Assembly (NCBI RefSeq): GCF_001592745.1
Contig: NZ_LUKD01000001.1
Span: 751,384-815,383 of the forward strand
Origin: Bdellovibrio bacteriovorus
GTDB taxonomy: Bacteria > Bdellovibrionota > Bdellovibrionia > Bdellovibrionales > Bdellovibrionaceae
Direction: 5' to 3'
Length of the DNA: 64,000 nt
In this document: piece after piece, positions 37,027 to 60,251 of the stretch
Layout of the letters: every line of letters starts with the position of its first letter
Position numbering within the stretch: the first letter of the stretch is position 1
Notes under the pieces: model-generated
Told to the model about the DNA's origin: nothing
The model's database searches: none
Seen by the model: the letters and a program-made list of their open reading frames with translations, nothing else
Program-made: the position numbers and the translations under genes

Positions 37027-37104
37027 GCCCTTCAGAAAATCTTTAACAGCCGTTTCAATCTGAGACGAAATACTTATAGTGACGCAATATCACGTCTTTT
37101 CTCT

Positions 37105-37131
37105 TACAAAATGCTGTTAAGAATCCGATAA
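37105..37131 (+). promoter_or_regulatory. Sigma-28 (FliA)-like promoter of fibre gene 1
   Basis: TCCGATAA (37124-37131) matches the sigma-28 -10 element GCCGATAA at 7 of 8 positions, with TACAAAAT (37105-37112) at the -35 distance. The -10 ends 7 bases before the ATG at 37139, so transcription would start at about the initiation codon and the message would be leaderless. GTTAAGAATCCGATAAG is shared with fibre gene 2. Confidence 0.55.
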
Positions 37132-37138
37132 GAAAGAT

Positions 37139-40100: not shown

Positions 40101-40882
40101 ATATCAACATCGGATGGATCGGTGAAAACAAATACGGAATTCAATCCGCAGATGAACTGACCAATCGTGATCTCTTTCTTAATCCGTTCGGAGGAAAAGT
40201 CGGCATTAACACGACGGCTTCAACTCATGCGTTGACGGTCGCGGGACAAGCTTATGTCACTGATGGAGCAGGCTTTGTAGAAATTCTTTCTCGCGCAGAT
40301 TCTGCACTTAATGTCACTAATGACAATGGATCTAAGCGTGGGTTCACTGTTCATCACAACGCGACCACCCTGCTATCGCAGTTCTATTATTGTCCCGGTG
40401 GCGCCTGTACCTCGAAGATGACTTTTGATTACAACGGCAATATGTGGATAGCTGGAACTTTAACTCAGGCTTCGGACCTGCGACTGAAAACCAATATCGC
40501 ACCTCTAGAAAATAGCTTGGATAAAATTCTTTCTTTGGAAGGCGTCAGTTATGACTGGAAAAATCCTGAAGGTCGAGGCCATCAGATCGGTCTTATCGCT
40601 CAAGATGTCGAAAAGGTTTTTCCCGAGGCGGTAGAAACCAATAAAGAAGGCTGGAAGGCCGTTGCTTATCAAAACTTAGTGGCTCCTTTGATTAATGCAA
40701 TAAAAGAACTTCATGCCTTGGTTATGACTCAAAATGGGAATCAAGATCGCGCTATTGCGTCCTTGCAAGAGTCTAACGAAGTTCTGAAAGCAGAAGTTCA
40801 AAACCTTTCAGAACAGAATCGTCTGCTGAAGGACGCCCTGTGTGAATCTCATCCTCAGTCTAAGATCTGTCAAAAAAAGTAA
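37139..40882 (+). CDS. Secreted MAT-like fibre protein 1, S74 chaperone C-terminus
   Basis: This is a 1247-residue secreted protein. A signal peptide (about 1-21) leads to a conserved head domain (about 24-155) with TYQGRI, GVFDVPIG and EIRAVPFA, shared with the three other fibres of this window. A long Gly/Thr/Ser-rich shaft of phage-tail-fibre-like repeats follows (DLSGTYPNPTVAKIQG, GTNSTTALTNN, VTAGTYTSVTVDTYGRVT). From residue 1112 (SDLRLK) comes an S74 intramolecular-chaperone domain with the Ser and Lys of the self-cleavage dyad. A coiled coil and a cysteine-bearing tail end the protein. It most resembles the mosaic adhesive trimer fibres of Bdellovibrio; prey binding is inferred. Confidence 0.82.
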   Translation: MRSGTSITFILMIFFVFSAHSSPRTFTYQGRILKSDGTPLEYNNVSFAFEITNASGNCVIYKEQRNNINMQGSGGVFDVPIGSGVKLYPTTAGYDLRTAFNNAVSHNCEGGSTYLPQEDDIRILRVQFHDGVGWKAITPNNEIRAVPFASFATSASKLGDKIADDFVLKTSVGACALGQYLTYDGTSFSCQNDAGGAGMVSDVNVTAPLTKGGTASIPSLGISVGTSAGTVAAGNDARFLNAERLRGVNVSSTLPSSGGQVLQYDGSQWGPAALGISSITGLQTALNDKVAVTMFPTSCSAGQSLVFVTPANKFDCYNIQISESQISGTISGAKISGNITGNAAGFTGNLSGDVTGAQAATVVGKIQGVDIDTTAPTAGQVLKFVGGKWTPAADIGTSNAVTNGGNATNIKVDTNANRPATGAVGDIYIASDINTTFVGSGAGWNTVGTSNLAFTSGTLPIARGGTNSTTALTNNRVMMSSGGAIVEAPALTDGQLLIGRTGNSPVAANLVAGTGVTLTNAAGSITISANGGLAPGGTAGGDLSGTYPNPTVAKIQGTSVSATAPSGTGQVLRYNGTNYAANFLSLADIRSTVTPANTIFPSSPCAADKTLNWSVLTDTFTCQNIGIADSQITYASKSAKTFLAAPTGAAGAPTFRTLASTDLPTSGVTAGTYTSVTVDTYGRVTSASNPTTASGYGITDTFVQNGNSFAAGAVLGTNNAQPLSFETNGTTRMNILSTGNIGVNVATPLSPLHVDGIFMAGENSERAISLQPDVSSGLTGAASAAQIRISEPNFDEGTAGSTFLTHESDGSTVLGNTRNNAGLSSVRFVTTPDAGSPTERMRIHSDGSVSVGSTAAPVFMTVNAGGTVAPYVPTTDRMAVIGTGNTVIQVTSPNNAAGGIYFSDPEDRDPGGISYSHLLNSMAFRVNDAINMYIDSNGYVGVGTTTPGFKFEVKGGNAQITSNTTMANTGAVGGLRIFNSQSSNAADYINIGWIGENKYGIQSADELTNRDLFLNPFGGKVGINTTASTHALTVAGQAYVTDGAGFVEILSRADSALNVTNDNGSKRGFTVHHNATTLLSQFYYCPGGACTSKMTFDYNGNMWIAGTLTQASDLRLKTNIAPLENSLDKILSLEGVSYDWKNPEGRGHQIGLIAQDVEKVFPEAVETNKEGWKAVAYQNLVAPLINAIKELHALVMTQNGNQDRAIASLQESNEVLKAEVQNLSEQNRLLKDALCESHPQSKICQKK

Positions 40883-40924
40883 AAAGCTTTGCTTCACAGA
40901 AGCAACAGAATAAAATAGAGATAT

Positions 40925-41524
40925 ATGCACGTTTTCACTGTGACCTTGCTCTTAATAACCTCTGTAGCAACGGCGGAAGTTTGTCCCGACGGTCGCAAAA
41001 GTTCCGACTTCATTCAAGGTTCCTTGCAGTTTGTTCGCTGCCAGAACATTCAAAATGCTTACTTTGAAAAAGATCTTCTAAAGGGAGCGGACGCTTCTGG
41101 AAGCCATTTCTATAAAGTCGGATTCAACAAAGTAAATTTTGATAATGTTCAAATGACGTCCGTCGAGTTCCGGGAAAACACTTTTGAAAAAGTAACGGGA
41201 CTGAACTGGAATATTCAAAATTCGCGATGGATGGGTGGGATAATAAAAGACAGCCATCTATCCAAGAATCGCCTCGACGCTTCCAAGCTAGGTGGAGTTA
41301 AAATCTATCGTACGAATTTAAGCGAAACCTCATTGAAGGACACGACTTGGAGCAACTGTTATTTCGAAGACGTAAATCTGGAAGGCGCTGACCTACGCGG
41401 AGCCCGCTTCGACATGTGTGTCTTCTTAAACGTACGTATGAAGGGAGCTATATTTAATAAATTCACGAAGCTTCCCATTTCTGACGCTCAAAGATCACTT
41501 CAGGGCATGGTGTACTCTCCATGA
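40925..41524 (+). CDS. Exported pentapeptide-repeat protein
   Basis: This is a 199-residue protein with a signal peptide (about 1-17). The mature part has loose pentapeptide repeats, A(D/N)LxX-like units seen in KGADASGSHF, GGVKIYRTNLSETSL and NLEGADLRGARF, which fold as a right-handed square beta-helix. Cysteines flank the helix. It starts 42 bases after fibre gene 1 and overlaps the next gene by 4 bases (ATGA), so all three are probably one operon. The role is unknown; a scaffold or adaptor for the fibre is possible. Confidence 0.72.
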   Translation: MHVFTVTLLLITSVATAEVCPDGRKSSDFIQGSLQFVRCQNIQNAYFEKDLLKGADASGSHFYKVGFNKVNFDNVQMTSVEFRENTFEKVTGLNWNIQNSRWMGGIIKDSHLSKNRLDASKLGGVKIYRTNLSETSLKDTTWSNCYFEDVNLEGADLRGARFDMCVFLNVRMKGAIFNKFTKLPISDAQRSLQGMVYSP

Positions 41525-43812
41525 ACAAGACACAACGGCTGTACGGCTTCTTTCTGTCTTTGACCCACATTGTGACCCTTTGGTTTTGGCGGGCCTTTGA
41601 TTTCGATTACGGGCTGTCGCACAAGCTTCAGAATTTAGAATGGAATCCTTGGCCATTTATTCCTGAAGGGCACGTCTTATTTATTCAGGAACATGCGGTC
41701 GCGGTCACAAGTGCCTATATACTTCTGTCCTTTCTGACACCTTTACTGTTTCTGTTTGAAAAGCCTAAAGACCCCCTTCGTCTTGGCGCTTTCACACTGA
41801 CTCTATTCATTAAGCTCGCGATCTTTTTTTCCTCTTATGATTTTATGGGTAACTATCACTATATGGGGAACTTGTTGTTGGCCCTTTATGTGGTCTCTGG
41901 TGCCAATCTGCTTTTTTTACAGATATCATTAGCGCTTTTTTATTTCGGCGCCGGACTTTTAAAGTTCAATGCCGAATGGATCACGGGTTCAGCTCTTCTT
42001 CGCGAAACATTTTTGCAAGGATTCTGGTTACAGGCAGCCTGCGTTTACGTCATCTTGTTAGAAACAGTCTTGATCTGGTTTTTATTTGCCAAAAATAAAT
42101 ATCTTCGCCTTATTACTTTCGCCCAACTCGTTGTCTTTCATATTTTCAGCTGGCACATCGTCGGATTTTACTATCCGTCGGTGATGTTTCTATTACTGAC
42201 TGTATTTCTTCTTTATCGGCCTACGGATTTTAATTTCAAAAATAGCCTTCCGAAATTTGCACCGGTCTACTTTGCCCTGTTCTTAGCGGCTCAGCTCTAT
42301 CCAAAGCTGCTTAATAAGAATGAAGCTTTGACCGCCGAGGGAAGAATGCTTTCCTTGAATATGCTTGATGCCAAAACGGAATGCCTGGCATCGTTTGAGC
42401 TTCCAACCCAAGACGGATATTTGTACCTGGATCAACCGCTTTCTTACGCGATTCGCATCCGCTGTGATCCGTTGGTTTATTTTAACTATGCAAAAAAACT
42501 GTGCGCGCAATCTTCAGATGTCACTATCCCCAGCGTTAAGATAAACCTGAAATCACGCAAACAGACCGATTATCAAGACACATGGGTCATTCGCGACCAA
42601 GAAATGTGCGATAAAGAAATTACCTATTCGATCTTCCTAAATGATTGGGTTCACGCGAGTCACGAACTTTCTGCGCCGACATCAGCACCGGAAAAAGCTT
42701 ACTCGCATTGGCGGGAAAATCCGCAACGGACCGGAGAATCTCGTCATCTGATGAAAACATCGTTTACTACCACCTCGCTGCCCTTTCCTTTTCAGGAAAA
42801 CATTCACTCCGCGGGTAAATCCAGTCCAATAGCCTTTAAGAGTCTTTGGTTTGTAGGAAGCGACAGTGGTTCGTTGTACGCCTTTGATAATTCCTCTTTT
42901 CTTTGGAGAGATTACTTCCCGAAGCCTGTCTTTGGCTTTCATGGCTCTGGTGTGACCACCGAAGATGGAGATCTCTATCTTGGTGCTTACGACGGAATTT
43001 TGCATAAGATCCGCAGTAAAGATGGAAAACGAATCTGGTCCGTAAAGTTGGGAAGTGCGATTGGCTCTTCTCCCCTTTTGGTAAATGGTTCGCTTTACGT
43101 CGCGGTAGAAAATCTGCCTGATAGCAGCACTTTCTTTGCGCTGGATCCGCGCAATGGCGCCATCCGCTGGAGTTCAAATAAAATCAAGGGACTTGCCCAC
43201 GCTTCGCTGAGCTATCACGCCAAAAGTGATCAGGTATTTGGGGCCACTGGTGCGGGCGAAGTGATTTCCTTTCACTCGAGATCCGGAAAAGAAATGTGGC
43301 GCATAAGCGTCTCGGGAAAGATTATTTCTACGCCTCTAGTCACTGACGAAACAGTGGTCATTGTAAGTACAGAGGGAGATGTCCAAGCACTGAATGTTCG
43401 TAACGGGACCTTGCGCTGGCATCATCAGTTAAGCTCGGGATCTCGGGCCTCTCCTTCTTATCATTCTAAAGAAAATATCCTGATAGTTCCCTCTGAAAAT
43501 GGCGACATCACGGCTTTACAAGCTTCCGACGGGGCCGAGCTTTGGCGGAAGGTGAATGCCCACCTTCACGTATCGAGCGGACTCATTGCCCGTTACGGTA
43601 AGGTCGATGTGTATATAGATCAGTGCCAGGAAAAGACTTTGTGTTTTCTAAATGTGAAATCCGGTGCGGTGCTGGAATCTTATTCCTTACCCGATAGCTT
43701 TTCATCAACGCCTATGCTTAAAGAAGACGGGCTCTACATCACTCTTGATGGGTCAGCGGGCTTATGGCGCTTGGGTGAGAACGTAAAGACCGCAAAACAG
43801 TCTGCAAAGTAG
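41521..43812 (+). CDS. HTTM-like membrane protein fused to PQQ-type beta-propeller
   Basis: This is a 763-residue protein. The N-terminal half (about 1-250) has several membrane helices and the block ISLALFYFGAGLLKFNAEW, similar to the HTTM membrane domain of vitamin-K gamma-carboxylase-like proteins. A linker with cysteines (about 280-390) follows, then a PQQ-like propeller (about 410-755) with repeated blades such as GSLYAFD, GILHKIRSKDGKRIWS, DVQALNVRNGTLRWH and DITALQASDGAELWR. The propeller should lie on the periplasmic side. It is coupled to the pentapeptide gene. The last 74 bases overlap the convergent GT-C-like gene. This domain pairing is unusual; function unknown. Confidence 0.7.
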   Translation: MNKTQRLYGFFLSLTHIVTLWFWRAFDFDYGLSHKLQNLEWNPWPFIPEGHVLFIQEHAVAVTSAYILLSFLTPLLFLFEKPKDPLRLGAFTLTLFIKLAIFFSSYDFMGNYHYMGNLLLALYVVSGANLLFLQISLALFYFGAGLLKFNAEWITGSALLRETFLQGFWLQAACVYVILLETVLIWFLFAKNKYLRLITFAQLVVFHIFSWHIVGFYYPSVMFLLLTVFLLYRPTDFNFKNSLPKFAPVYFALFLAAQLYPKLLNKNEALTAEGRMLSLNMLDAKTECLASFELPTQDGYLYLDQPLSYAIRIRCDPLVYFNYAKKLCAQSSDVTIPSVKINLKSRKQTDYQDTWVIRDQEMCDKEITYSIFLNDWVHASHELSAPTSAPEKAYSHWRENPQRTGESRHLMKTSFTTTSLPFPFQENIHSAGKSSPIAFKSLWFVGSDSGSLYAFDNSSFLWRDYFPKPVFGFHGSGVTTEDGDLYLGAYDGILHKIRSKDGKRIWSVKLGSAIGSSPLLVNGSLYVAVENLPDSSTFFALDPRNGAIRWSSNKIKGLAHASLSYHAKSDQVFGATGAGEVISFHSRSGKEMWRISVSGKIISTPLVTDETVVIVSTEGDVQALNVRNGTLRWHHQLSSGSRASPSYHSKENILIVPSENGDITALQASDGAELWRKVNAHLHVSSGLIARYGKVDVYIDQCQEKTLCFLNVKSGAVLESYSLPDSFSSTPMLKEDGLYITLDGSAGLWRLGENVKTAKQSAK

Positions 43813-45577
43813 TCTGGTAAATTTCTTGAGCCTTGTGAGAAGGCTCCGCTTTCTGCAGAGTCTCGACGACCTTGCCTAGGTACTCAGTGCGATTTAAAGT
43901 TGTTCGATGTTGATACTGCGTAAGTTGATAAAGCAAAGACTCATAGCTTTCCGGTATCGCCTCTGTCATATTCGCTTGCAAAGCCAAATCTGCATGCAAA
44001 AGCTGCCCCGCTATGGCCACAAGAGGATGGTTGTTCTCTACTCCCCCCGGCAAAGGGGAAGGCTTTTGAATAACATCCAATGGAAAATGAATCTGAAACT
44101 GATTGCGAATGTAGCTCATCGTTAAATTTCGACAGAACAGCTCTTCTTCCGTCATTGGCCGGTTGTTAACTTCACGGTAAGCCTTTATAAGACTTTTTTC
44201 ATCACAGTTATTGGACGTTTCAAGACAATTCAAAATCTTCGGAAGAACACCTTTACAGACACCCGGTGTTGCCCACGCCATGTGATCCGAAGACTTGGCG
44301 GAAATGATTTCCAAGCGGTTTTCCAACTCCGTTAGTTTTTCGTCCTTGGATTTAGACATAAAAAGATTTCGTTCAAAATTTCGAATCAATATGTCTGAGG
44401 ATGGAATCATCAAAAGTAGTGTGGTCAGAACAGCACTCAGCGCAAGAGGTCTTTGAAACTGAGAAAGGTTTTGGCTCGCGACGTATGCAAAGTTAATGGC
44501 TAAGATCGGAAGGAAAGAATAGATAAAGCGAGCTTCTCCGGGGTTCGAGAAGAAAACAGCAGCGCACTGACAGAGAATAAATAATAGGAAAAGCCGGGTT
44601 ATCGGATTTGAAAGAATTCGCGAAGCACAGAAGAGTGTACAAAGAAATGCAAAAAGATAAAGACCACCTAAGATCTTACTGAGGGCCGTCATTCTTCCTT
44701 TCATTGGATCAGGATAGAAAGGCCCGTCAAAGATGTTCAACAAACTGCGCGACTGCAAGGCCGCCACCCACGGTCGCTCTTGCACACATGCCTTCGCCGT
44801 TTGCACATAGTAAAGCGTGTCGCGAAAGTCATTTTCTAAAAATAAAGATCGCGTTTCTCTGAGAGACCAAAATGCAGGTGGCCGAAACCAGAATGAATTC
44901 TGCTCGTTTTTAAAATCCAACGTGGGTGCCTGACACCAGGCCTGAGCGATATTGGCACCACGATTTAAATTCAAAGACGCTGTTCCTTGCCGATCAAATC
45001 GACTGTTCACAAGCGAAAGACCCGCTAGCAGAAACACCATGAGCATCAAGCCCGCCAGAGTCTGCTTGCGGGACATCCTTGTTGCCTCGGTGGAGAAAGT
45101 GAGAGCGTAGAGCGGAAAAAGCAAAAGAAACGGCAGAATGATATTTCTTAACGCGAATGAGAGACCTAATAAAATGAAAATGCCTAAATGGCGTGTCCAC
45201 AATGACACTTTGAAAGTTTCAAAGTAAAGCCCCAGAGCCAACACCGTCAGAAACTGAAAAAGGCTTTCGCTTATGTTTAACGAATTCAAATAAATCTGCA
45301 TGGGATTAAGCAACAAAAAGAGTCCTAGAACGCCGTTTTGCCATCGTGAAGAGACATTAAGATGACCCAGAAATCGATAGACCAAATAGGCGGTGCCCAG
45401 CCCTAATCCCTGATTCAGCCAATAAAGAAGACTCAAGCGATATTCTAAAAGACCGATGGAATCTAAGATTTTATAAATAAAGGCCAGCCAAACCGGATAA
45501 GAACCCCATGCCGCAAAATTTCCGAAAACTTCGCCAGAAATCACAGCCAAGGCTCGCTCATCGAAGCGAAAAGCCAT
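43739..45577 (-). CDS. GT-C-like integral membrane protein
   Basis: This is a 612-residue protein from ATG 45577 with about ten membrane helices and a large C-terminal soluble region (about 400-612). The layout and an FRFDERAL block at the N-terminus fit GT-C glycosyltransferases (the PMT/ArnT type), where an acidic DE motif follows the first helix. The ATG falls after what looks like the first helix: the same frame is open upstream to a TAG at 45686-45688 and encodes a hydrophobic run, but it contains no ATG, GTG or TTG. See the separate finding. It follows the pilin-like operon by 86 bases and may belong to it. Confidence 0.6.
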   Translation of the reverse strand: MAFRFDERALAVISGEVFGNFAAWGSYPVWLAFIYKILDSIGLLEYRLSLLYWLNQGLGLGTAYLVYRFLGHLNVSSRWQNGVLGLFLLLNPMQIYLNSLNISESLFQFLTVLALGLYFETFKVSLWTRHLGIFILLGLSFALRNIILPFLLLFPLYALTFSTEATRMSRKQTLAGLMLMVFLLAGLSLVNSRFDRQGTASLNLNRGANIAQAWCQAPTLDFKNEQNSFWFRPPAFWSLRETRSLFLENDFRDTLYYVQTAKACVQERPWVAALQSRSLLNIFDGPFYPDPMKGRMTALSKILGGLYLFAFLCTLFCASRILSNPITRLFLLFILCQCAAVFFSNPGEARFIYSFLPILAINFAYVASQNLSQFQRPLALSAVLTTLLLMIPSSDILIRNFERNLFMSKSKDEKLTELENRLEIISAKSSDHMAWATPGVCKGVLPKILNCLETSNNCDEKSLIKAYREVNNRPMTEEELFCRNLTMSYIRNQFQIHFPLDVIQKPSPLPGGVENNHPLVAIAGQLLHADLALQANMTEAIPESYESLLYQLTQYQHRTTLNRTEYLGKVVETLQKAEPSHKAQEIYQTTLQTVLRSLRSHPSAISPLTHQE

Positions 45578-45663
45578 GTGAATATTCCACGTCTCGCTTT
45601 TATAAAAGAATACGAAGAAAGCGAATCGAAGAAGAATGCTAAGAAGAAAAAGTCCCCGTAAGC

Positions 45664-46659
45664 TTAAAGAGATATCACACCCGTCCTAAGAATGTCGTTA
45701 CTGATCGTCGTGGAAATACTTTTCGAAGTAACACGAACCAGATCTGTGTAGGTATCAATCATTTTCAGAAATTGTTTTAACTCAATCTGATTTTCACAGG
45801 CACCAGGGAAGGCGTTCTTCCTTAAGTAACAGTTGTTTTGCACAGTGAAAGTTTCAATGGCAACGTTCGTTCCCTCGACATTCTTAAAGAACATTCCAAA
45901 TCCCGCGCCTACAACAGGGTTTCCGGCATTAGATTTAGGGAACTCTTGAACGGAGATCACTCTTTCATTGTTATCGAGATCAATGGAGTAAGCCTTAAAG
46001 AAAAATTTAGAAACTGATCCTTCTGTACAATTGGGCGAGTTCGGAAGACAGCAGGTAACACTCATCGTGCCATCACTGCGATGAGTGATGAAGGGACGAC
46101 GTTTCATGGCGCCTAATACGTACAGTGCGGTGATACCCGGAAACTTATTATCTATCTCAAAAGCGTTATCCGCCTCATCACATCGTGCGACCATAAGGCG
46201 TTTGGTTCTTTTTTGCATTCCACCTTGGCTTCCGGTCAGACGATGTTCTTCCAACAAAAAAGAATCAAGAATAATATCGTAAGCCGTTCCTGATATGGCT
46301 TCCGTGGCTTTTTCATACAGGTGACTTCCCTGAGCATTCTTAGCCCATTCTTGAGGATTTATAATCATTGAAGGCGCAGGTGAAACTGCATTGCTACCTA
46401 GACTCGCTGCTCCCGTATTGAGGGTTTGATAGAAAGTTGTCGGCATATTCAGACGGCTCATGTTTAAGTTTCTTGCCGAACGACGAATAAACATATCCAT
46501 TTCTTGAATTTCACTGACCACTTCTTGCTTCTTTTCAATACGCTGCATCTCTTTTACGAAGACAATCGTTGCTTGGCTTGATGCTAAAAGCAGAATGGCC
46601 ATGATGGCACTGACCACCATGACCTCAACCAATGTGAATCCCTTCTTATCCAAAATCAT
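45664..46659 (-). CDS. Prepilin-like protein (class III signal)
   Basis: This is a 331-residue protein with a textbook prepilin N-terminus: a short basic leader, then G^FTLVEVMVV with the conserved Glu5 and a hydrophobic helix (about 8-30). This is cut and methylated by the prepilin peptidase in type IV pili and type II secretion pseudopilins. The rest is a globular domain with paired cysteines (RCDEAD, TCCLPNSPNCTE and others). Such length is typical of a minor pilin. It overlaps the next upstream gene by 4 bases (ATGA), so it is the third gene of the operon. Confidence 0.85.
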   Translation of the reverse strand: MILDKKGFTLVEVMVVSAIMAILLLASSQATIVFVKEMQRIEKKQEVVSEIQEMDMFIRRSARNLNMSRLNMPTTFYQTLNTGAASLGSNAVSPAPSMIINPQEWAKNAQGSHLYEKATEAISGTAYDIILDSFLLEEHRLTGSQGGMQKRTKRLMVARCDEADNAFEIDNKFPGITALYVLGAMKRRPFITHRSDGTMSVTCCLPNSPNCTEGSVSKFFFKAYSIDLDNNERVISVQEFPKSNAGNPVVGAGFGMFFKNVEGTNVAIETFTVQNNCYLRKNAFPGACENQIELKQFLKMIDTYTDLVRVTSKSISTTISNDILRTGVISL

Positions 46660-49517
46660 GGTTTCACCTTAATAAAATCCAGATACCCCAGATCAAAATT
46701 CGACTTCTTCATCACCCACAACATCGAAATCAAGGGCTTTTGTAAATCAGCTTCAAGTAGGCGGTCTTCATCGGTTCCACAGCCTTGCGCTATATCCCGA
46801 ACAGCAATGTTTCTATTTCTGCTTGAATAACAAGCGACCTTGATTTTCACCGAAGGATCTGGAACCCATTCAAACTCCTCTTGCTGTTGCGCTTGAGGCG
46901 AGCTTTGTGGGCCTTGGTTGCTCTTATCCACTTTGACTTTTTTCAGCAGTCGGCGCGCTTCAATAAAGGCACCGTCTCTATCGACAAGCTCCTGACTGAG
47001 CTCTTCAAATCCGGGCTTTTTAAACGCCAGCTTAGAAAACTCTCCTTGAAGCGCGGGTGCAAGATGCGCCCCTTGCAGAGCGACCCATACTGCACGCGGT
47101 TCGGAAGCTAACTCTGGAAACGGATAATAATTTCCATGAGGTGCCACCGCCATGAGCGAACTCAACCAACCCGAAGAAGAATGAGGCGCAACGAAAAATC
47201 CATTTGAAGATTCACAGGCGCTACCACCGTCCGCAAAGTTTTGCGATGACTTGCCGCGAGTGACGAAGAATCCACCGCTCTTATTCTGACAGAGGAATTC
47301 GTGCGAGCTTGTCTGTTCAGAGGCCACAGGAACAACGCCGCGGAATTTCACGTGATTGAAAAGCACGTAGGCTGTTCCACCACCGGCAGGCGCGCGCACG
47401 TAAGAATAAGGTGTTTCCGAAACAACCGTATGGGTCTGTACGCCAGCAGGACTATAATAAAGCATGTGCCGTTGATCGACGTCATTTGAAAGCATGGCTC
47501 TAGGCACATCTGCCACGACACCGGCGTCTTCTACTTTGAGCGCCGTCCAGAATTCGCTAGAAACTTTACTTCCAAAAGATTTTTTCAAATCACTTGCAGC
47601 CCGAGAACTCTCTTCTTCTCCTTGTGGAGAAACAAAGAATCCCATTTTTGCTAGATTCAGTAACTGATAACGATTCGATGCTTTTGGAATCTCATCTAAG
47701 CGGGCCACCGACCCACCTTGTTGCAGAATACCTTCGCGCAACTGAGTCACCGGATGCGATTCGCGTCCCATATTTCGGCAGGCCTCCGGAGCCTCGGCAA
47801 AACTCACGGAAGGAATCGTCGAACTTCCTAGAGTGCGCGCCAAAGTATATTCACCGAAGGCAAAACACATCGCAGGAAGCTTGTCGTTACAATTTCGCGA
47901 CTGATAGATCAGCTTTCCATTTTCAACCTTAGCCGAAATACAACGGCCTCCTCCTGCCAACGCAATGTTTTGTTCAGCATAAGGCAGGATTTTTTCGGCT
48001 TCGTCTTTGTTTTCAGCAGCACATTCAGGAATCTGCGCATCCAAAGGTTCTGGTGGTAACTCGTTCAATGGGCCAAAGGTTTCTAGCCCCATGCGAGTGC
48101 ATCCTTTAACAAAACACATCGTACAGTGGAGTGGCATTGAAGCGGCACCGATTTCTGCCGCCCACTTATCTTCGTTATCCAAGAAATCCGGAGTGGACAC
48201 GGTCAAAGAAGGTCGTGCCGAAATAGGATTGGTCTCAGAACACACTTTGCGACAAAGAGGTTCTGCATTATTCACTTTCACCTTCAAGCCATTGCCGCCC
48301 GGACTGAACGACATAGGAGCACTTGTATCCATTCCGCCTTGAGCATCTATCGGGTAAAAAAGCTGGTTGGAGTGTTGACGATAAGATGTCGTCGCTGAGT
48401 TTGTGTACTCTATCGCAGTTCCCGAATTGTTCAGAATATTCTTCCCATTAGTATCTAAAAACTCCAGCTTAGGACTGACACGGACGCGTTCTCTGTAACC
48501 ATACTTGTTTTTAGAAAAATAGTTCGCAAAAGCCGTGACGTTTATAAACGGTTTGTAGTCGCGCGTGTGATTTCGCGCCGGGCAACGAAAACGGGTTTCG
48601 GTACAAGCGGCGACGACGTTTTTAGTTCGATCTGCGGAAAGACGACCATCAATGTAACGACCTTGAACCACTTCCGTAGCTGAAAACGAAATTTCAAAAG
48701 GACTGACACCGGACTCTTCAAAAATAGTATTATTATAAATAGTCCGTCCCGAAGGGTCTCCGACACCGGTGCCTGCGGGTGACATCGAGAGAATCACACC
48801 ATTAGCATCGCGGACATCACACGAGCCCACGTCCAAAACTGAAATAAGATCTTTTGAATCTGCGGAACGCTTAGAGCGTTCTCCGTTGTCTAGAATACGG
48901 TCATAGTTCGTGACCGCCTCAACCATGAAGACGGCGGTCTTTGAATCGACTCTCTGCAAACCCATAGGTAACAGAGAAAATACGGCGCTGGATTTCGTCG
49001 GATCCATTGTACGAATGCTAATACTTAAATCGACTTGTAAAGTTTTGAAATCAATAGCTTGGCTGGTCGCCAAGGTGTTCTTGCCCTGAACGGGGGCTAA
49101 TGAGATTTTGATTTCGCCTCTATCTGAAACTTTATAATCTGATACCGACCACTCGGGTGCAAAAACCTTTTTCCACACGGTCAAAGAAAACGCGGTGTTC
49201 AATCGCGCCTTTGCCGTGACAAGATCTATGGGTTGAATTCCGGGTTTAATCTGCTTTGGCTCTAATAAAGAACAAATGCCTTTTGTTTTAAGGCCTCCCG
49301 ACGTCTCGGCTGTTTCTAAAAGGGCCGCCCGTGTGCGGTTTAAAACGTCAGTTCCGATTCCAGGCAGTTCCTGTTTTGCAACAGAACTTTTCGCCATCGT
49401 CGAATGCTGGCTGACTATGGCAGCAATGGATAGTATCGAAAGAGCTACGATACCCGCGGCGATCACGCCTTCAATCACGGAAAAACCTTGTATAGATTTG
49501 CTATTGTGTTTTTTCAT
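46656..49517 (-). CDS. Giant pilin-like protein with C-type-lectin-like regions
   Basis: This is a 953-residue protein from ATG 49517 (an ATG at 49532 adds 5 residues). The N-terminus IQGFSVIEGVIAAG has the prepilin pattern G^FSVIE with Glu5. The long extracellular part has many cysteines. Two stretches (about 530-750 and 753-880) show patterns like C-type lectin folds: a CxxxG helix, SEFWTALKVE, later EFLC, then a second round with ACESSNGFF and VWVALQG. Pilins this large are rare. It lies between two other pilin-like genes in one operon. Carbohydrate or prey-surface binding at a pilus tip is inferred; the lectin call is from motif reading only. Confidence 0.68.
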   Translation of the reverse strand: MKKHNSKSIQGFSVIEGVIAAGIVALSILSIAAIVSQHSTMAKSSVAKQELPGIGTDVLNRTRAALLETAETSGGLKTKGICSLLEPKQIKPGIQPIDLVTAKARLNTAFSLTVWKKVFAPEWSVSDYKVSDRGEIKISLAPVQGKNTLATSQAIDFKTLQVDLSISIRTMDPTKSSAVFSLLPMGLQRVDSKTAVFMVEAVTNYDRILDNGERSKRSADSKDLISVLDVGSCDVRDANGVILSMSPAGTGVGDPSGRTIYNNTIFEESGVSPFEISFSATEVVQGRYIDGRLSADRTKNVVAACTETRFRCPARNHTRDYKPFINVTAFANYFSKNKYGYRERVRVSPKLEFLDTNGKNILNNSGTAIEYTNSATTSYRQHSNQLFYPIDAQGGMDTSAPMSFSPGGNGLKVKVNNAEPLCRKVCSETNPISARPSLTVSTPDFLDNEDKWAAEIGAASMPLHCTMCFVKGCTRMGLETFGPLNELPPEPLDAQIPECAAENKDEAEKILPYAEQNIALAGGGRCISAKVENGKLIYQSRNCNDKLPAMCFAFGEYTLARTLGSSTIPSVSFAEAPEACRNMGRESHPVTQLREGILQQGGSVARLDEIPKASNRYQLLNLAKMGFFVSPQGEEESSRAASDLKKSFGSKVSSEFWTALKVEDAGVVADVPRAMLSNDVDQRHMLYYSPAGVQTHTVVSETPYSYVRAPAGGGTAYVLFNHVKFRGVVPVASEQTSSHEFLCQNKSGGFFVTRGKSSQNFADGGSACESSNGFFVAPHSSSGWLSSLMAVAPHGNYYPFPELASEPRAVWVALQGAHLAPALQGEFSKLAFKKPGFEELSQELVDRDGAFIEARRLLKKVKVDKSNQGPQSSPQAQQQEEFEWVPDPSVKIKVACYSSRNRNIAVRDIAQGCGTDEDRLLEADLQKPLISMLWVMKKSNFDLGYLDFIKVKP

Positions 49518-49550
49518 AGATCTCCCGCACATAAACGTTCAAAAAAGAGT

Positions 49551-50849
49551 CTAGTTATCACCGTCGCCATCACCGTTCGACTGAAGGACTTCGACAGGGC
49601 GTGGTCGGACCACCATCGTTGTGACCGTCGTAGTTTCCGTGACGGACTCCTGAGGCGACGTCACTTCTATCTCAGGAAGTTGCACCCCCAGCCGCTTGGG
49701 CTCGATAACGGACAAAGTTGGATTCTTCACGAAGGTGCTTGCCACGTAGGGATTATAAGTATTTCTAAACGTAGGTTTCGTGGCTTCCATCGGTGAATAT
49801 CGAGAGACACTGATATCAAATTTTTCGTAGGAAAGACTTTTAAAGCTACTAGCCACAGTGACAGAGGTCGAAGTCGAGCTGCTTGCAGAGTCCCCTTCCA
49901 CTTCGCGACTGACCCGTTGAGTTTGGAATACGCGCACCGGCGAATAGCATTTGCGCTCAACTTCCGCGTTGAGTTTTTCCCCAGGCATGAAGACTTCTTG
50001 CTTACCCATGGCATCGACCAGCATCACGTCTTTTTCCCGATTCGGATAAATTTCGCTATTGTAGGTCGTCGTTCTTTCATACTTTAGCTTGTAGATAGCC
50101 CCTGGCCCCAAATTTGTGATGCGCACACCGATCATCGCCGATGCTCCATCTTGGGGAGCCCCCAAAGGACCGCGACATTCTGGATTGTTCGTCAGAACAC
50201 TTCCCGCTTCACATTCAAAGATGCAGGATTCTCTTCCCGTATTACTAATCACCTGCACGTCAGGAGTTCCGATAGGTCGGCGGATCGCTCCACTTTTACT
50301 GACTTCTTTGGCTCGGCCGTCTGTTCCCATGAACTGAGTCACTGCCGTCATCACAACCATAAACCGATCGTCATCCGAGAGAGAGTTAATGAATGGAATT
50401 TCGCCCACAAGAGATCTAAATGAGCTTTGTTTCGACCAATCAACAAGATCCATTTTCAATTCGGTGGTATAAACCTTCTTGTTCTCATCTTTGTTTTCCA
50501 CAACAAGAACCAAAACATCGTCCTCATGACGAACGGATTTTATATTGTACTTACTTTCAGGAATGCGCGGAGTATGGTATCCACCGCCCCAGCGGCATTT
50601 TTTTTTATTACTTCCTAAATCTTCCCAACCATCTTCGCGACACAATACCAGGTTATGAGCGACGAAATATCCGCCTAATCCCAAGGCTTTTTGATTACCT
50701 AGATTTGTCTCCCATTCAGAATAGGCGTAAGACGACCTTCTAAAGATATCCAGTCCCATCTGAGACATGGCAGCGACGCTCAATACGGAAATAACCGATA
50801 TCCCTGCGACCATTGGCAGAATGCCTGCGCCAGAGTGATTCAACTTCAC
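49551..50849 (-). CDS. Pilin-like secreted protein, first gene of operon
   Basis: This is a 432-residue protein whose N-terminus is a short basic leader (MKLNHSGAG) followed by a hydrophobic helix ILPMVAGISVISVLSVAAM. This resembles a class III prepilin signal (cleavage after Gly9) but lacks the usual Glu5, as in some PilX-like minor pilins. The C-terminal part is unstructured and rich in Val/Thr/Pro, and the last third contains CIFECEAGS and CRGPLG cysteines. It is the first gene of the operon; a GCCGATAA site lies about 55 bases upstream. Confidence 0.65.
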   Translation of the reverse strand: MKLNHSGAGILPMVAGISVISVLSVAAMSQMGLDIFRRSSYAYSEWETNLGNQKALGLGGYFVAHNLVLCREDGWEDLGSNKKKCRWGGGYHTPRIPESKYNIKSVRHEDDVLVLVVENKDENKKVYTTELKMDLVDWSKQSSFRSLVGEIPFINSLSDDDRFMVVMTAVTQFMGTDGRAKEVSKSGAIRRPIGTPDVQVISNTGRESCIFECEAGSVLTNNPECRGPLGAPQDGASAMIGVRITNLGPGAIYKLKYERTTTYNSEIYPNREKDVMLVDAMGKQEVFMPGEKLNAEVERKCYSPVRVFQTQRVSREVEGDSASSSTSTSVTVASSFKSLSYEKFDISVSRYSPMEATKPTFRNTYNPYVASTFVKNPTLSVIEPKRLGVQLPEIEVTSPQESVTETTTVTTMVVRPRPVEVLQSNGDGDGDN

Positions 50850-50904
50850 AAAAACCTCCGACCGAAACGCACAAATGAAGCATTTTAATGTTGATTCCCC
50901 AAAT

Positions 50905-50912
50905 TTATCGGC
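50905..50912 (-). promoter_or_regulatory. Sigma-28-like -10 site before pilin operon
   Basis: The minus strand reads GCCGATAA here, an exact match to the sigma-28 -10 element, ending 55 bases before the start of the first pilin-like gene. The expected -35 region reads TTATTCGC, a poor match to TAAAGTTT, so the site is supported by its -10 and its position only. Confidence 0.4.
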
Positions 50913-51065
50913 AATTTTTCGCGGCGAATAAACCCTAGGTGCATTACGATGTGTGGCTTAAATTTTTTTTGACTTCGCGTACTGCTTCAAAAGAAGACGA
51001 CGTTCCAGAATTTTTAAAACTGCGTAATATAACCGTCTCACTCATAAAAATGATTTGCTTTTAAC

Positions 51066-51401
51066 TCAGTAGAACTGATCTTCGTTCTCGACTTGCAAGA
51101 TGGCGCGAAAACCGTGGCGGCCCGCTATCGCCGTCACTAGATGGCGAAGGCAGTTGATAGTTCTACCTCCACTTCCCAAAACCCGGCCGAAGTTATCTTG
51201 ATCTGTTTTTATGTAATAGACGGTGGTCTGTTCCCCCACGGAGTATCTAAGACCTACACTATTCGGATCGCTGGCAATTTCTTTAAGTGCCAATTCGACA
51301 ATGCGCTGAATGTTTTCTCGCGCGATATTGAACCTTTCTGAAGATCCGTCTTCCATCTTCCGCACTTTAATCACCGCCACTTGCTTTCTTAGCGAACTCA
51401 T
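51066..51401 (-). CDS. KH-domain RNA-binding protein (KhpA-like)
   Basis: This is a 111-residue protein. The C-terminal part (about 66-105) matches the KH domain of the KhpA/YlqC group, with the GxxG loop GSGG (76-79) in FGRVLGSGGRTINCLRHLV. These proteins bind RNA and in other bacteria work with KhpB in post-transcriptional control. About 65 residues precede the KH domain, more than in KhpA, which is usually about 75-80 residues in all. It diverges from a TIGR02147-type regulator and follows a 216-base region with no gene. Confidence 0.8.
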   Translation of the reverse strand: MSSLRKQVAVIKVRKMEDGSSERFNIARENIQRIVELALKEIASDPNSVGLRYSVGEQTTVYYIKTDQDNFGRVLGSGGRTINCLRHLVTAIAGRHGFRAILQVENEDQFY

Positions 51402-51526
51402 TCCTTGGCCCCTTTTGTGACATAGTTCTTCATCTCTTGTGAAATGTCTTTAGCCGAGCTTAAGTTACTGTGTCGGACTCGACTGTATGCCCACAGATTC
51501 AAAAACTGCGACCATGCGAGGAGCAG

Positions 51527-52279
51527 ATGAACGAACTTTCAAAAATCCTGATTCGCGAGTTTGAAATGAAGCGCCAGCGAAATCTCAAATTTTCACTAAG
51601 GGCTTTTGCTAAGTTTTTGAAAACAGATGCCAGCAATCTTTCAAAGATCCTTCGTGGTGAGAGAATTCCTTCTGCTAGCTTTGCTTTGGAGCTTCTTCAA
51701 CGACTGAACATCAATACGGATGAAAGAAACATAGTCTTGAAATCACTTGTCGAAACTAAAAGTCATCTTAAAGAAGAAAAGAAAGAAAGGTCGAAAAATC
51801 TAGAACACAAAATCGTGGCGTCTTGTCATTGGCTTCACCTTATTTTACTGGAGCTCTCGCAAATAATGATTTTAACGCCAAATCAGCTTGAAAAGATCAG
51901 CCGAATTTTGAATGTCTCTTTGTATGAAGTTAAGGTGGCCTACGAGGAATTGGCAAGATGGGACTTATTAAATGAAGATGGTATCGATAATTATAGTACG
52001 ATGTGTGGGCCCATAACTGCGGAAAATCTTCGCGCGATTCAAAGACAATTTTTAAAGATGGCTGTGGATGCCATGGAAATCTACGACCTGACAGAACGGG
52101 AAAACACGACACTGACTTTCTCGATTCCCAAGGCGCACATTCCCGAAGTAAAAGAGATCTTAAAAAAGACTCGCGATCGGATCAATCGTTTATCCAACAT
52201 GAAGAAAAATCAGAAAAGCTGCATCTACAATATTTCTATGGCCCTTTATCCCGTCTGTGATAGCGCTGATCTATCCTAA
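51527..52279 (+). CDS. TIGR02147-family DNA-binding regulator
   Basis: This is a 250-residue protein. The N-terminal helix-turn-helix is LKFSLRAFAKFLKTDASNLS followed by KILRGERIP, typical of the TIGR02147 family, which is expanded in Bdellovibrio and Fibrobacter. The C-terminal half is helical and ends with a hydrophobic strand region. The start is uncertain: ATG 51527 follows AGGAG closely (3-base spacing) and matches the family's usual N-terminus; GTG 51470 adds 19 residues. It lies 100 bases upstream of fibre gene 2 in the same direction, so control of the fibre cluster is possible but inferred. Confidence 0.78.
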   Translation: MNELSKILIREFEMKRQRNLKFSLRAFAKFLKTDASNLSKILRGERIPSASFALELLQRLNINTDERNIVLKSLVETKSHLKEEKKERSKNLEHKIVASCHWLHLILLELSQIMILTPNQLEKISRILNVSLYEVKVAYEELARWDLLNEDGIDNYSTMCGPITAENLRAIQRQFLKMAVDAMEIYDLTERENTTLTFSIPKAHIPEVKEILKKTRDRINRLSNMKKNQKSCIYNISMALYPVCDSADLS

Positions 52280-52364
52280 GTTGTATCAAGTTGAAACAGT
52301 TTTCGTAAAAAGTATTACGTTCTGTCTATAATTCCGCTTTTCACTCGGACTTTCTTGTTAAGAA

Positions 52365-52372
52365 TCCGATAA
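52365..52372 (+). promoter_or_regulatory. Sigma-28-like -10 site of fibre gene 2
   Basis: TCCGATAA ends 7 bases before the ATG at 52380, as in fibre gene 1, and the block GTTAAGAATCCGATAAG is identical to that gene. A clear TAAA -35 is not seen at the expected distance (it reads CGGACTTT, which keeps the TTT end). Confidence 0.5.
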
Positions 52373-52379
52373 GAAGAAT

Positions 52380-55300
52380 ATGAAACACGGAACGTATCTT
52401 GTCTTGATTCATGTTTTTCTAGCATCCCTAGGAAGCTTCGCCGCTCCTAATCTTCTGACATATCAAGGCCGCATCGTGAAAGCGGACGGTTCCGCCCTTG
52501 AGTACAATAACGTCAGCTTTTTATTTGAAATCACTAACAACACCGGCGCCTGCGTGATCTATCGAGAGCAGAAAAACGGAATCAACATGACGAACAGTCA
52601 TGGTGTTTTCGATGTTCCAATTGGTGCCGGTACAAAACTTTTCCCTTCTTCACCGACGAAAACTCTTTTGAATGCGTTTAATAACAGTACGACTCACGAT
52701 TGTGCAGATGCTGATAACAATGTTGCGGGCTCTTATACACCCGCTGTCGGACACACGCGTCTTTTGCGCGTTCAGTTTCACGACGGAACAGGTTGGAAGG
52801 TCATCAGCCCGGATAATGAGATTCGCTCTGTTCCCTTTGCGGCCTACTCTCAATCCGCTGAAAAGCTTGGCGACTTAGGCGCCAATGACTTCATCGTAAA
52901 AACAGGCATTCCTTCTTGTAATACGGGTGAATTTTTAACTTGGAATGGAACCGCTTTAACTTGTGGCGCGGTTTCTGGAGCCAGTGGTGGAACGGTCACC
53001 AATGTCACATCGGCCAACTCTTATCTCACAGTGACTAACAACACATCCACGCCCCTTCTTACACTGAACGTGGGTACCACTGCTAACACCGTCGCTGCCG
53101 GAAATGATCCGCGTTTGTCAGACTCTCGTCCCCCGAATGGCGCCGCAACCGGTGATTTAAGTGGAAACTATCCAAATCCTACAGTGGCAAAAATTCAAAA
53201 TGTGGCAGTCGCGACGGCGGCGCCGACAACGGGGCAGTTTTTTAAGTTCGATGGTGCCCAATGGGCGGCTTCAGCCATTGCGATTTCTGATGTTACAAAC
53301 TTGAATTCCACATTCTCTAATTATCACACCACCGCGGCCTTCAATGCCGCTGTCGGAAGTGCGAACTGCGCCGCTTACCAAACTCCTTACTGGAATTCGG
53401 TTTCGGGCTCTTTTCAGTGCCAAGCGATCAACGTATCCGTCGCTGGCGATGTCAGTGGAAGTATTGGTGCCGTATCGGTTAATAAAATTAAAGGTGTCGA
53501 TGTTGATACGACCGGATTGTCTTCAGGACAAGTTTTAAAATACGACGGAACGAAGTGGGCGCCTGGAAATGACAGTAACGCCGGTGGTACAGTTACAAAT
53601 ATCACAACCGGCACGGGTCTTAGCGGTGGTCCGATCACTTCGACGGGAACTATTTCTTTGGCAAATACGACGGTGACAGCAGGTTCTTATACGCGCGCCA
53701 ATATTACGGTGGACGCTCAAGGTCGTTTGACTGCCGCAAGCAATGGCTCGGCCGTGAATCTTGCCACGGATATCACTGGAACTCTTCCAATTGCAAACGG
53801 CGGTACTGGCCAAACAAATGCGACAGAGGCCTTCAACGCGCTTTCTCCCCTGACAACAAAGGGCGATATTGTCGTGAACGACGGAACCAATGACATTCGT
53901 CTTCCAGTAGGTACGAATGGACAAGTTCTTTCCGCAAACTCGGCCCAGGCCTCGGGCTTACAATGGGTGACTCCCACGAATGGAACTGTCACCAATGTTT
54001 CAGGTACAGCACCTATTTCGGTTTCATCCGGCTCAACAACTCCTTCAATTTCAATCGCGGATGCGACGACCTCAGCAAAAGGGGCTGTTCAAGTAGGAGC
54101 TGGTATCGCAGTCACCTCAGGGACTATCAGTGCTGATCCCGCAAACTTTCCTTCAGCGGTGCCCGTTGCTAAAGGCGGTACGGGTGCCACTTCGTTAACG
54201 GCAAATAGACTTCTTGCTTCCAATGGAAGCGGCAGCGCGATCACCGCATTTAACTGCGCGACGGGACAGCTTCTTACTTTTGATGCGACAGGTATGATGA
54301 CTTGTACATCTTTTGCAAATGCATCGGTGTTTGTGAATGGCGGAAACTCTTTCGCAGCGGCAGGAACTTTGGGAACGAATGACTCCAATGCATTGAATTT
54401 AGAAACGAACAATGCGGTTCGACTTACAATCAGTGCTGCGGGTGACCTCGCCGTCAATACGACGGTCGACACAAATGCAAAACTCAAGATCCGTTCTGGA
54501 TCGGCGACTCAAGCCCCTCTGAGTTTAGACAGTCCGGCCTCAGGTATTCCTAGCATTGATTTTCTTCGCAATGGAACTTGGAAGGGAACTTTCGGGTTTA
54601 CAAATGGTGCGGGCGACGAACTTTATGTCTCTAACGGTGTTAACGGGCCGGTGATCTTTGATACGAATAACGACGAAAAAATGCGCATTCAAGCTGATGG
54701 TAAAGTTGGCATCGGTTCTAGTGGCCCAGGGGCTCTCTTGCAAGTCGGAGCTTGGGATGCGCAGGCGACTTACAACAGTATATTCGTTGGAAGTTATCAC
54801 AATACTTTGGGGCAAGCTCAGTTCGTTGGTAACTGGAACAGCACGGGATATTGGGGTATTGGTCCTGCGACAAATCCGGCTAACGGTGTTGTGCGTATCG
54901 GTAATGCGAATACAGCCGGCGACTGGAGAGCCACTCAAGATTTGGCGCTTCAAGTGCCCGGAAGAATTGGTCTTGGTCCTACGGTCACAGCTCCTGAAAG
55001 GGTGTTGCATATCAAAGGAACTGGCGGGCTTGACGATGATCTTTATATTCAATCGCAGCACAGTGCGAGTGGCGAAGGTTCTGTGATTATCACGCGCGCG
55101 CGCGATTCTGCGGGAGCTCCTGCCGCCGTTCTTGCTAATGACAGTTTGGGATTTCTGGCGATCCGTGGTTACGATGGATCTGCCTATGTACAAGCAGCAA
55201 GCATTAACGCCTACGCGGCATCTGACTTTGCGACTTCAAAATCATCAACGATGATTTTCAGTACAATAGCTTCGGGAACGTCTGCTGAAAGAATGAGAAT

Positions 55301-55967
55301 TCATTCTGACGGAAATGTTGGGATTGGAACCACGGCACCTACAGGACACCTTACAGTCTCCTCTGCGGCGGCCTATACGATGATCTATAATACCAACACC
55401 TCCGCCGGCGGCCAGGCGTGGCGATGGCTTTCCTCTTCTACCGCCGCTCCTCTTGGCGCCAATGCTATGTGCTTCGCACTCGGCGCCTGTTATTTTAGTT
55501 TATATGCTTCAGGTAACGCCACCCTCTCTGGCACCCTCACTCAAGCTTCAGATGTTCGTCTTAAAAACGATATCCAACCAATCCTTAATGCCTTGGATCG
55601 AATCACAAATATTCACGGCGTGACTTATCAATGGATCGACAAAAATAAAGACCAGACAAAACAAATGGGTCTTATCGCGCAAGAAGTGGAAGCTGTTTTC
55701 CCTGAGGTCGTGAAAACGGACAGCAAGGGATTTAAATCGGTCGCTTATCAAAATCTTGTTGCTCCGATCATCGAAGCCATTAAGGAGTTGAACCATAGAT
55801 GGTCTTCAGATTCGGAAGTCATTCATAAAGAATTAGTCGCGCAAAAACGAGAGATCGCTTCCCTCAAAGAAGAAAACGAAAAACTCAAAACGCAAGTTGA
55901 AGAAATCTCTTCGATCAAAAAAGCCTTGTGCAAGCAGGATAAGAGTCTCGACTTTTGTAAAAAATAA
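52380..55967 (+). CDS. Secreted MAT-like fibre protein 2, S74 chaperone C-terminus
   Basis: This is an 1195-residue secreted fibre with a signal peptide (about 1-20), the shared head (LTYQGRI, GVFDVPIG, EIRSVPFA) and a shaft of tail-fibre-like modules: DLSGNYPNPTVAKIQN, TGTGLSGGPITSTGTISL, LPIANGGTGQ, KGAVQVGAGIAV, GGTGATSLTANRLLASN. From residue 1057 (SDVRLK) an S74 chaperone domain follows, then a coiled coil and two cysteines near the end, very like fibre 1. The head and shaft are closest to fibre 3. A terminator follows. It is probably a trimeric, surface-exposed adhesin; host range and ligand cannot be read from the sequence. Confidence 0.83.
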   Translation: MKHGTYLVLIHVFLASLGSFAAPNLLTYQGRIVKADGSALEYNNVSFLFEITNNTGACVIYREQKNGINMTNSHGVFDVPIGAGTKLFPSSPTKTLLNAFNNSTTHDCADADNNVAGSYTPAVGHTRLLRVQFHDGTGWKVISPDNEIRSVPFAAYSQSAEKLGDLGANDFIVKTGIPSCNTGEFLTWNGTALTCGAVSGASGGTVTNVTSANSYLTVTNNTSTPLLTLNVGTTANTVAAGNDPRLSDSRPPNGAATGDLSGNYPNPTVAKIQNVAVATAAPTTGQFFKFDGAQWAASAIAISDVTNLNSTFSNYHTTAAFNAAVGSANCAAYQTPYWNSVSGSFQCQAINVSVAGDVSGSIGAVSVNKIKGVDVDTTGLSSGQVLKYDGTKWAPGNDSNAGGTVTNITTGTGLSGGPITSTGTISLANTTVTAGSYTRANITVDAQGRLTAASNGSAVNLATDITGTLPIANGGTGQTNATEAFNALSPLTTKGDIVVNDGTNDIRLPVGTNGQVLSANSAQASGLQWVTPTNGTVTNVSGTAPISVSSGSTTPSISIADATTSAKGAVQVGAGIAVTSGTISADPANFPSAVPVAKGGTGATSLTANRLLASNGSGSAITAFNCATGQLLTFDATGMMTCTSFANASVFVNGGNSFAAAGTLGTNDSNALNLETNNAVRLTISAAGDLAVNTTVDTNAKLKIRSGSATQAPLSLDSPASGIPSIDFLRNGTWKGTFGFTNGAGDELYVSNGVNGPVIFDTNNDEKMRIQADGKVGIGSSGPGALLQVGAWDAQATYNSIFVGSYHNTLGQAQFVGNWNSTGYWGIGPATNPANGVVRIGNANTAGDWRATQDLALQVPGRIGLGPTVTAPERVLHIKGTGGLDDDLYIQSQHSASGEGSVIITRARDSAGAPAAVLANDSLGFLAIRGYDGSAYVQAASINAYAASDFATSKSSTMIFSTIASGTSAERMRIHSDGNVGIGTTAPTGHLTVSSAAAYTMIYNTNTSAGGQAWRWLSSSTAAPLGANAMCFALGACYFSLYASGNATLSGTLTQASDVRLKNDIQPILNALDRITNIHGVTYQWIDKNKDQTKQMGLIAQEVEAVFPEVVKTDSKGFKSVAYQNLVAPIIEAIKELNHRWSSDSEVIHKELVAQKREIASLKEENEKLKTQVEEISSIKKALCKQDKSLDFCKK
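53583..54430 (+). repeat. Fibre shaft module, copy in fibre gene 2
   Basis: This stretch encodes TGTGLSGGP through LETNN and is closely matched, in order, by 57648-58500 in fibre gene 3. The encoded proteins are nearly the same over about 280 residues. A shorter related copy is at 57277-57450. Long similar DNA in neighbouring genes could recombine. Confidence 0.8.
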
Positions 55968-55988
55968 CTCACAGAAGTTCGCTAAACT

Positions 55989-56013
55989 GTGTCTCACTTC
56001 GAGACACTTTTTC
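55989..56013 (+). terminator. Rho-independent terminator after fibre gene 2
   Basis: GTGTCTC (55989-55995) and GAGACAC (56001-56007) form a 7-bp stem with a 5-base loop, followed by TTTTTCT. It separates fibre genes 2 and 3. Confidence 0.8.
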
Positions 56014-56073
56014 TAAATCGCGCTTACATTCGAATAATTCTGGCCCAAAGACCTTCGAAATAGTTGTTAAGAT

Positions 56074-56081
56074 TCCGATAA
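56074..56081 (+). promoter_or_regulatory. Sigma-28-like -10 site of fibre gene 3
   Basis: TCCGATAA ends 7 bases before the ATG at 56089, the same position as in fibre genes 1 and 2. GTTAAGATTCCGATAAG differs from theirs at one base. Confidence 0.5.
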
Positions 56082-56088
56082 GATAGGT

Positions 56089-60219: not shown

Positions 60220-60243
60220 GTGCTTAGGAAAACATCAAATTCA

Positions 60244-60251
60244 ACCGATAA
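60244..60251 (+). promoter_or_regulatory. Sigma-28-like -10 site of lipoprotein gene
   Basis: ACCGATAA (6-7 of 8 to GCCGATAA) lies 21 bases before the GTG start of the small lipoprotein, so unlike the fibre genes a short leader with a good CGGAGG Shine-Dalgarno (60261-60266) would be present. Confidence 0.45.

Follow-up and report, generated by a model that had tools for sequence, protein, structure and literature searches.

Three adjacent minus-strand genes of Bdellovibrio bacteriovorus (g1, g2 and g3, Table 1) probably constitute an accessory HIJK-type minor-pilin tip cassette of a type IV pilus in which a binding module is grafted on the I-like member, g2, a reading that we hold with measured rather than strong confidence. 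The genes lie in a 64,000-nucleotide stretch of DNA (the window), in which an earlier note had claimed three neighboring genes of a pilin operon, and the ORF list returned the minus-strand reading frames where that note had placed them. All three genes are real and conserved. Compared with G001, a relative whose gene order is that of the window from 37139 to 55967, dN/dS is 0.012 for g1, 0.039 for g2 and 0.14 for a part of g3 (its first part), and the trio is thus under purifying selection (dN/dS 0.01-0.14). These low ratios, together with relatives at 21-25% identity, argue that the trio does not consist of chance ORFs. The processing of the proteins, their trimer, its tip position, its ligand and its role toward prey are inferred.

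The length of g2 depends on the choice of start codon, being 958 aa with the first ATG and 953 aa with the second. We prefer the second ATG, at 49517, which has GGGAG directly 5′ and is the start used in G001; from this start the description of the middle gene as one of about 953 residues with many cysteines holds, 18 cysteines being encoded. The ATGA overlap that had been noted between these genes is present at one of the two junctions only (g2–g3), while g1 and g2 are separated by a gap of 33 bases, counted to the preferred g2 start. Each of the three proteins has one N-terminal hydrophobic segment. In G001 itself, g3 is split into two ORFs (L024, 7925-8921) by a frameshift or an assembly error.

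Table 1. The pilin trio, the surrounding island and their neighbors in window coordinates (feature, positions, strand, remarks)
g1, GspK/PilX-like minor pilin	49551..50849	-	432 aa, GTG start, 6 Cys, without Glu5
g2, giant PilV/GspI-like pilin	46656..49532	-	preferred start 49517, giving 953 aa; 18 Cys
g2 residues 1-67, prepilin leader and long predicted N-terminal helix	49317..49517	-	AlphaFold2 model; hydrophobic 17-35
g2 residues 520-925, cysteine-rich C-terminal region	46743..47960	-	AlphaFold2 model; C-type-lectin-like stretch of the earlier note
g3, PilW/GspJ-like minor pilin, canonical G/FTLVE	45664..46659	-	331 aa; PF07963, TIGR02532
Variable MAT-fibre island with the trio	37027..62831	.	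flanks 36139-37026 (EamA transporter) and 62832-63629 conserved
MAT fibre gene	37139..40882	+	NF053851 E 7.6e-69, Peptidase_S74
MAT fibre gene	52380..55967	+	NF053851 E 2.8e-67, Peptidase_S74
MAT fibre gene	56089..60219	+	NF053851 E 1.2e-67, Peptidase_S74
MAT fibre gene	60708..62792	+	NF053851 E 1.3e-67
Pentapeptide-repeat protein	40925..41524	+	homologue adjoins the trio in G041
HTTM-like membrane domain fused to PQQ/BamB-type beta-propeller	41521..43812	+	
g4, 612-aa membrane protein	43739..45577	-	86 bases 3′ of g3; 5 hydrophobic segments (crude scan)
Small KH-domain protein (KhpA/KhpB-type), upstream of g1	51066..51401	-	PF13083 E 1.2e-14
TIGR02147/DUF4423 helix-turn-helix regulator	51470..52279	+	

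Prepilin-type N-termini had been proposed for all three proteins, and the proposal stands to a different degree for each. With significant matches to PF07963 (E 2.4e-8) and TIGR02532 (E 1.2e-7), g3 is clearly a pilin by its sequence. In g2 the prepilin motif (QG/FSVIEG) is read by eye; the window protein is unmatched by Pfam N_methyl even at E<=5 and its match to TIGR02523 (PilV; E 0.047) falls below the cut-off, while N_methyl is matched by 4 of the 11 members of the g2 alignment, the window g2 not among them. The full-length AlphaFold2 model of g2 has a helix at residues 9-67 followed by strands at 123-236, with a pLDDT of only 39-50 over residues 1-40. The N-terminus of g1 is G/AGILPMV, missing Glu5, and a Pfam scan gave it no family match, GspK/PilX included, so that its prepilin character is read by eye and from its relatives only, whose N-termini we take to resemble those of PilX/GspK (for example RG/SALVIALVV in L073). 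Pfam, NCBIfam and PHROGs yielded no significant family for g1 or for the g2 graft. The genome has a single gene for an A24 (A24_N) prepilin peptidase.

Glu5 is missing in all 11 g1 proteins and kept in all nine g3 proteins. Among the g2 rows, 6 of 15 have it and 9 do not, as read from the N-termini. In the available part of one account of minor pilins, the K subunit is without Glu5 and caps the HIJK complex (PMC9934059). Taken together with that account, the Glu5 pattern makes the operon look like a K-I-J set with a giant I-like member, and by N-termini and gene company g1 looks K-like and g2 I-like.

Relatives of g2 are sparse and diverged (about 21-25% identity), and mostly accompanied by g1 and g3. 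Of 79 genomes searched with the single sequence, 5 had g2. With a profile, matches were obtained in 46 of the 140 genomes of the order, though most of these cover only the first 40-80 residues, where any pilin would match. Requiring E <1e-10 and a match beyond the N-terminus, g2 relatives are present in 11 of the 140 genomes (G000, G001, G009, G041, G074, G102, G113, G130, G131, G132 and G133), a count from which G053 was left out for its weak C-terminal match (E 2.1e-4); within the genus, the family is found in 3 of 24 genomes. Public genomes scanned with the g2 alignment gave 13 loci, of which 8 coincide with loci of the order genomes and five are new: two in Bacteriovoracaceae, one in Bacteriovorax stolpii, one in Oligoflexia and one labelled Thioalkalivibrio that is close to the G074 locus. 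The same scan with the single g2 sequence found nothing, and no g2 locus was found in the viral contigs scanned. The search for the operon elsewhere, proposed beforehand as a check, thus recovered it in other predator lineages. By manual reading, g3 directly follows g2 in 11 of 16 distinct loci and g1 precedes g2 in most. The order is g2-g3-g1 in G009, a different gene follows g2 in G130, G131 and G132, and no g3 was seen in G113 and G133; these last five, in which g3 does not adjoin g2, are small-genome MAGs. In a five-sequence alignment of g2 none of the 18 cysteines varies, and G7, C70, C85, W87, C209, C213, C225 and C301 are conserved in the g1 alignment (n=11).

Several of these loci have further features. 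Two tandem g2-like giants occur at L075 (355-8670) with g3-like and broken g1-like genes in between, and at L076 (9766-14601) a second pilin trio (K-, I- and J-like genes plus one for a 494-aa protein) adjoins g1-g2-g3 on the opposite strand. A CCP_MauG-family di-haem peroxidase gene adjoins the trio in 3 of the 13 public-scan loci (L070, 3454-4802; L073, 8027-8713; L074, 5489-7189), in L074 on the strand opposite to the trio.

The setting of the trio in a fibre-adhesin locus, also put forward in the earlier note, was confirmed: the trio lies within an island with four MAT fibre genes (NF053851), where g4, the pentapeptide protein, the HTTM-propeller fusion, the KH protein and the TIGR02147 regulator are also encoded. 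The EamA gene on one flank has good matches (at least 49% identity) in 22 of 24 genus genomes, including G000. We compared the site in 12 relatives (L136-L147), searching about 20 kb of each with 52 window ORFs. Both flanks were found in 10 of these; in L138 and L147 the stretch was rearranged or of insufficient length. Among the ten, the site carries one to three MAT-type genes in eight and is empty in two (L139 and L146, with 459 and 559 bases from flank to flank). None of the 12 relatives has g1, g2 or g3 at the island site (E 1e-10).

It is possible that g4 is co-transcribed with the trio; by eye, g4 is GT-C glycosyltransferase-like and could be a candidate pilin modifier, and it has no Pfam or NCBIfam match and was not seen beside the trio in G041. 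KhpA-like KH proteins are multi-copy, with 3 to 13 matches per genus genome (E<=0.001) and 10 in the genome of the window, and the KH gene is therefore a poor synteny marker. An HTTM-like domain and a PQQ-type propeller, fused or adjacent and often with a pentapeptide protein, are MAT neighbors in the window, L102 and L104, and HTTM and PQQ-type propeller genes adjoin pilin trios in the window, L021 and L103. An obligate link between the HTTM-propeller-pentapeptide genes and the trio was rejected, as these genes also adjoin MAT genes where there is no trio (L102, L104) and, in G035, a trio with a giant K-like gene. A diversity-generating retroelement was likewise rejected: the genome has no RVT_1 or reverse transcriptase match, in a search whose controls matched in 3 of 14.

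Pilins of such size had been described as rare, which does not hold for this lineage. Of the further pilin operons of the same genome, three are trios that open with a gene for a giant K-like protein (931, 1007 and 857 aa), after which come short genes of I-like and J-like type. The family of the 1007-aa K-like protein is present in 22 of the 24 genomes of the genus, most of which also have a second member that is more distant, and that of the 857-aa protein in 12 of 24. The window locus stands apart in having the I-like member as its giant and in being an accessory cassette. The giant-K trios are followed in L027 (2049-3188), L030 (4737-5981) and L103 (11140-12699) by a gene for a secreted protein sharing CFGTNLR; the proteins of L027 and L030, the two scanned, gave weak EF-hand matches.

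We propose the following mechanism. PilD would process all three proteins, and the processed g1, g2 and g3 would form a K-I-J trimer that nucleates the filament at its tip, with g1 as the putative K/PilX-like cap and g3 as the J/PilW-like subunit. The I/PilV-like g2 would combine a short pilin part with a disulfide-rich graft of roughly 700 residues, and this large region may project outward from the pilus end as a contact module, replacing the job of PilY1, the separate adhesin of Myxococcus or Pseudomonas. The cassette itself appears to be exchanged in and out of the MAT-fibre island, and such swapping suggests that it probably tunes which surface a strain grips, most likely that of prey. 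Several points count against a tip cassette: g1 and g2 of the window are without a significant pilin-family match, the full-length model of g2 is poor, g2 relatives also occur in small-genome MAGs (G113, G130-G133) in which g3 does not adjoin them, and the operon is missing an H/FimU-like gene, a subunit that could be shared from elsewhere in the genome. A PilY1 search of the genome gave no match, but this result is uninformative since the control genomes were also unmatched.

Comparison with characterized systems, as described in the available parts of the cited papers, points to prey contact as the most probable use of the trio. PilY1, which is not a pilin, has a contact role in diderm models (PMC9934059, PMC13190605). 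Myxococcus has four exchangeable Tad-type KilLMN tip trimers with a part in prey killing, and fold-based prediction has pointed to tip-like complexes in Bdellovibrio (PMC12075869). MAT fibres recognize prey, one of them with a C-type-lectin tip, Bd2740 (PMC10769870). Taken together they favor prey contact, and the suggestion that the locus holds a second contact device fits the exchangeable minor-pilin tips of Myxococcus (PMC12075869).

A use of the pilus tip unrelated to prey, be it in self-aggregation, in the biofilm matrix, in DNA uptake or at a stage of life outside prey, has in its favor that relatives occur in Oligoflexia as well as in MAGs with small genomes, which are not known to be predators. 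We regard it as unlikely, as the trio lies within a MAT island and the tested MATs, in the part of PMC10769870 available, are prey-recognition adhesins.

The nature of the g2 graft is a separate question, on which the earlier note had gone further and described two stretches as resembling C-type lectin folds. The cysteine-rich C-terminal region has two putative units, C580-C743 and C768-C896 (delimited by analogy), in each of which a Cys-bearing helix is followed by GxFxxP, then by W-A-L and finally by a late Cys, and the C-type lectin fold has a like order of the same elements. Were g2 to carry two tandem C-type-lectin-like domains (about 553-747 and 748-925), the tip would bind prey glycans, with the proposed mechanism otherwise unchanged. 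The shared pattern, helices and strands that follow each other in a compatible order in the model of residues 520-925, and the use of a C-type-lectin fold by Bdellovibrio on the MAT tip Bd2740 (PMC10769870, in its available part) speak for such domains. So does an hhalign comparison of unit with unit, which was co-linear but weak (E 0.0057 and 0.055; probabilities 6.4% and 1.0%), although the reverse comparison gave a single match of 15 columns.

The searches for a lectin do not bear that reading out. The full-length AlphaFold model of g2 is poor (mean pLDDT 55, pTM 0.34) and that of residues 520-925 of moderate confidence (pLDDT 70, pTM 0.57). Foldseek against the PDB gave no match for either model at E<=0.001, and VIA-align of both models had no lectin among its rows, even though PDB entries with this fold are numerous; Foldseek of the 520-925 model against predicted viral proteins was also without a match at E<=0.001. 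Mixed beta-sandwiches aligned with residues ~270-470 of the poor full-length model (Z <=6.7) and were given no weight as the g2 fold. Pfam Lectin_C and its relatives matched none of the 11 g2 members at E<=5, a PHROGs scan of g2 gave no C-type lectin, and profile searches of PDB sequences with g2 gave no lectin and nothing useful, with phmmer performing likewise. Fold prediction of the C-terminal part, the check proposed for the two lectin stretches, together with the structure search and the profile libraries, therefore lends them no support. Given the weak similarity between the units and models without a lectin match, we consider a lectin fold in g2 unproven and rather improbable.

It is more doubtful still that the trio is the pseudopilus tip of a T2SS-like secretion or uptake machine that moves substrate and does not grip a surface: T2SS and pili alike have subunits of GspI/J/K-like type, and four adjacent prepilin motifs elsewhere in the genome (C6:116-118k) look by eye like a T2SS, but that run appears to own a minor set, the trio sits among fibre genes, and a pseudopilus in the periplasm would hardly accommodate an I subunit of 953 residues.

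The accessory pilus tip that we favor has counterparts in several systems. Like the HIJK and FimU-PilV-PilW-PilX tips of T2SS and type IV pili, the trio has operonic minor pilins, a cap-like member without Glu5 and a J-like member with a canonical N_methyl; it differs in its 953-aa I-like subunit with a cysteine-rich graft, in an operon without an H/FimU-like gene and in the absence of Glu5 from g2 itself in the majority of rows. Binding modules grafted on operonic minor pilins, with a proposed tip position, are described for Streptococcus sanguinis PilB and PilC, PilC carrying a lectin module (PMC9934059, in the part available). Those modules are a ConA-like lectin and a vWA domain, whereas here a disulfide-rich region without a family match is found in a diderm predator. 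The Kil system of Myxococcus, a Tad-type pilus, shares with the present case a predatory host, large C-terminal domains, many predicted disulfides and a genome with several trimeric tip cassettes. KilLMN are, however, TadE/F/G-type, while g3 has a type IVa N_methyl signature and g1-g3 have no Tad-family match in Pfam or NCBIfam; the giant is also a different subunit. Several alternative tip clusters per genome are likewise found in the minor pilin/PilY1 clusters 1-3 of Myxococcus, although the operon here is missing a PilY1-like gene and PilY1 is not a pilin. The MAT fibres of Bdellovibrio share the island with the trio and are adhesins with varied tips, among them the C-type-lectin fold of Bd2740 (PMC10769870, in the text available), but they are secreted trimeric fibres and not pilins. 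A literature search, with most subscription journals and preprints outside its reach, gave no report of a C-type-lectin pilin or of the trio operon.

What this work chiefly adds is the family-wide trio with its Glu5 pattern, a repertoire of trios that each have a giant pilin, and a MAT island that varies. The predator requires type IV pili for prey entry. As a tentative possibility, Bdellovibrio-type predators may hold an interchangeable set of pilus tips, with several trios per genome and one giant in each, usually K-like and here I-like, some belonging to the core genome and some carried as MAT-island cargo, and the choice of tip and fibre may set prey range without PilY1. If the proposed function is true, the predator would own a repertoire of tip subunits that are large and exchangeable, and at one locus such a tip would be paired with prey-recognizing fibre adhesins. 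The idea of exchangeable tips, known from the Kil pilus of Myxococcus with its Tad-type pilins, would then extend to type IVa-class pilins, and the trio would offer a concrete candidate, amenable to deletion, for what the pilus of Bdellovibrio touches.
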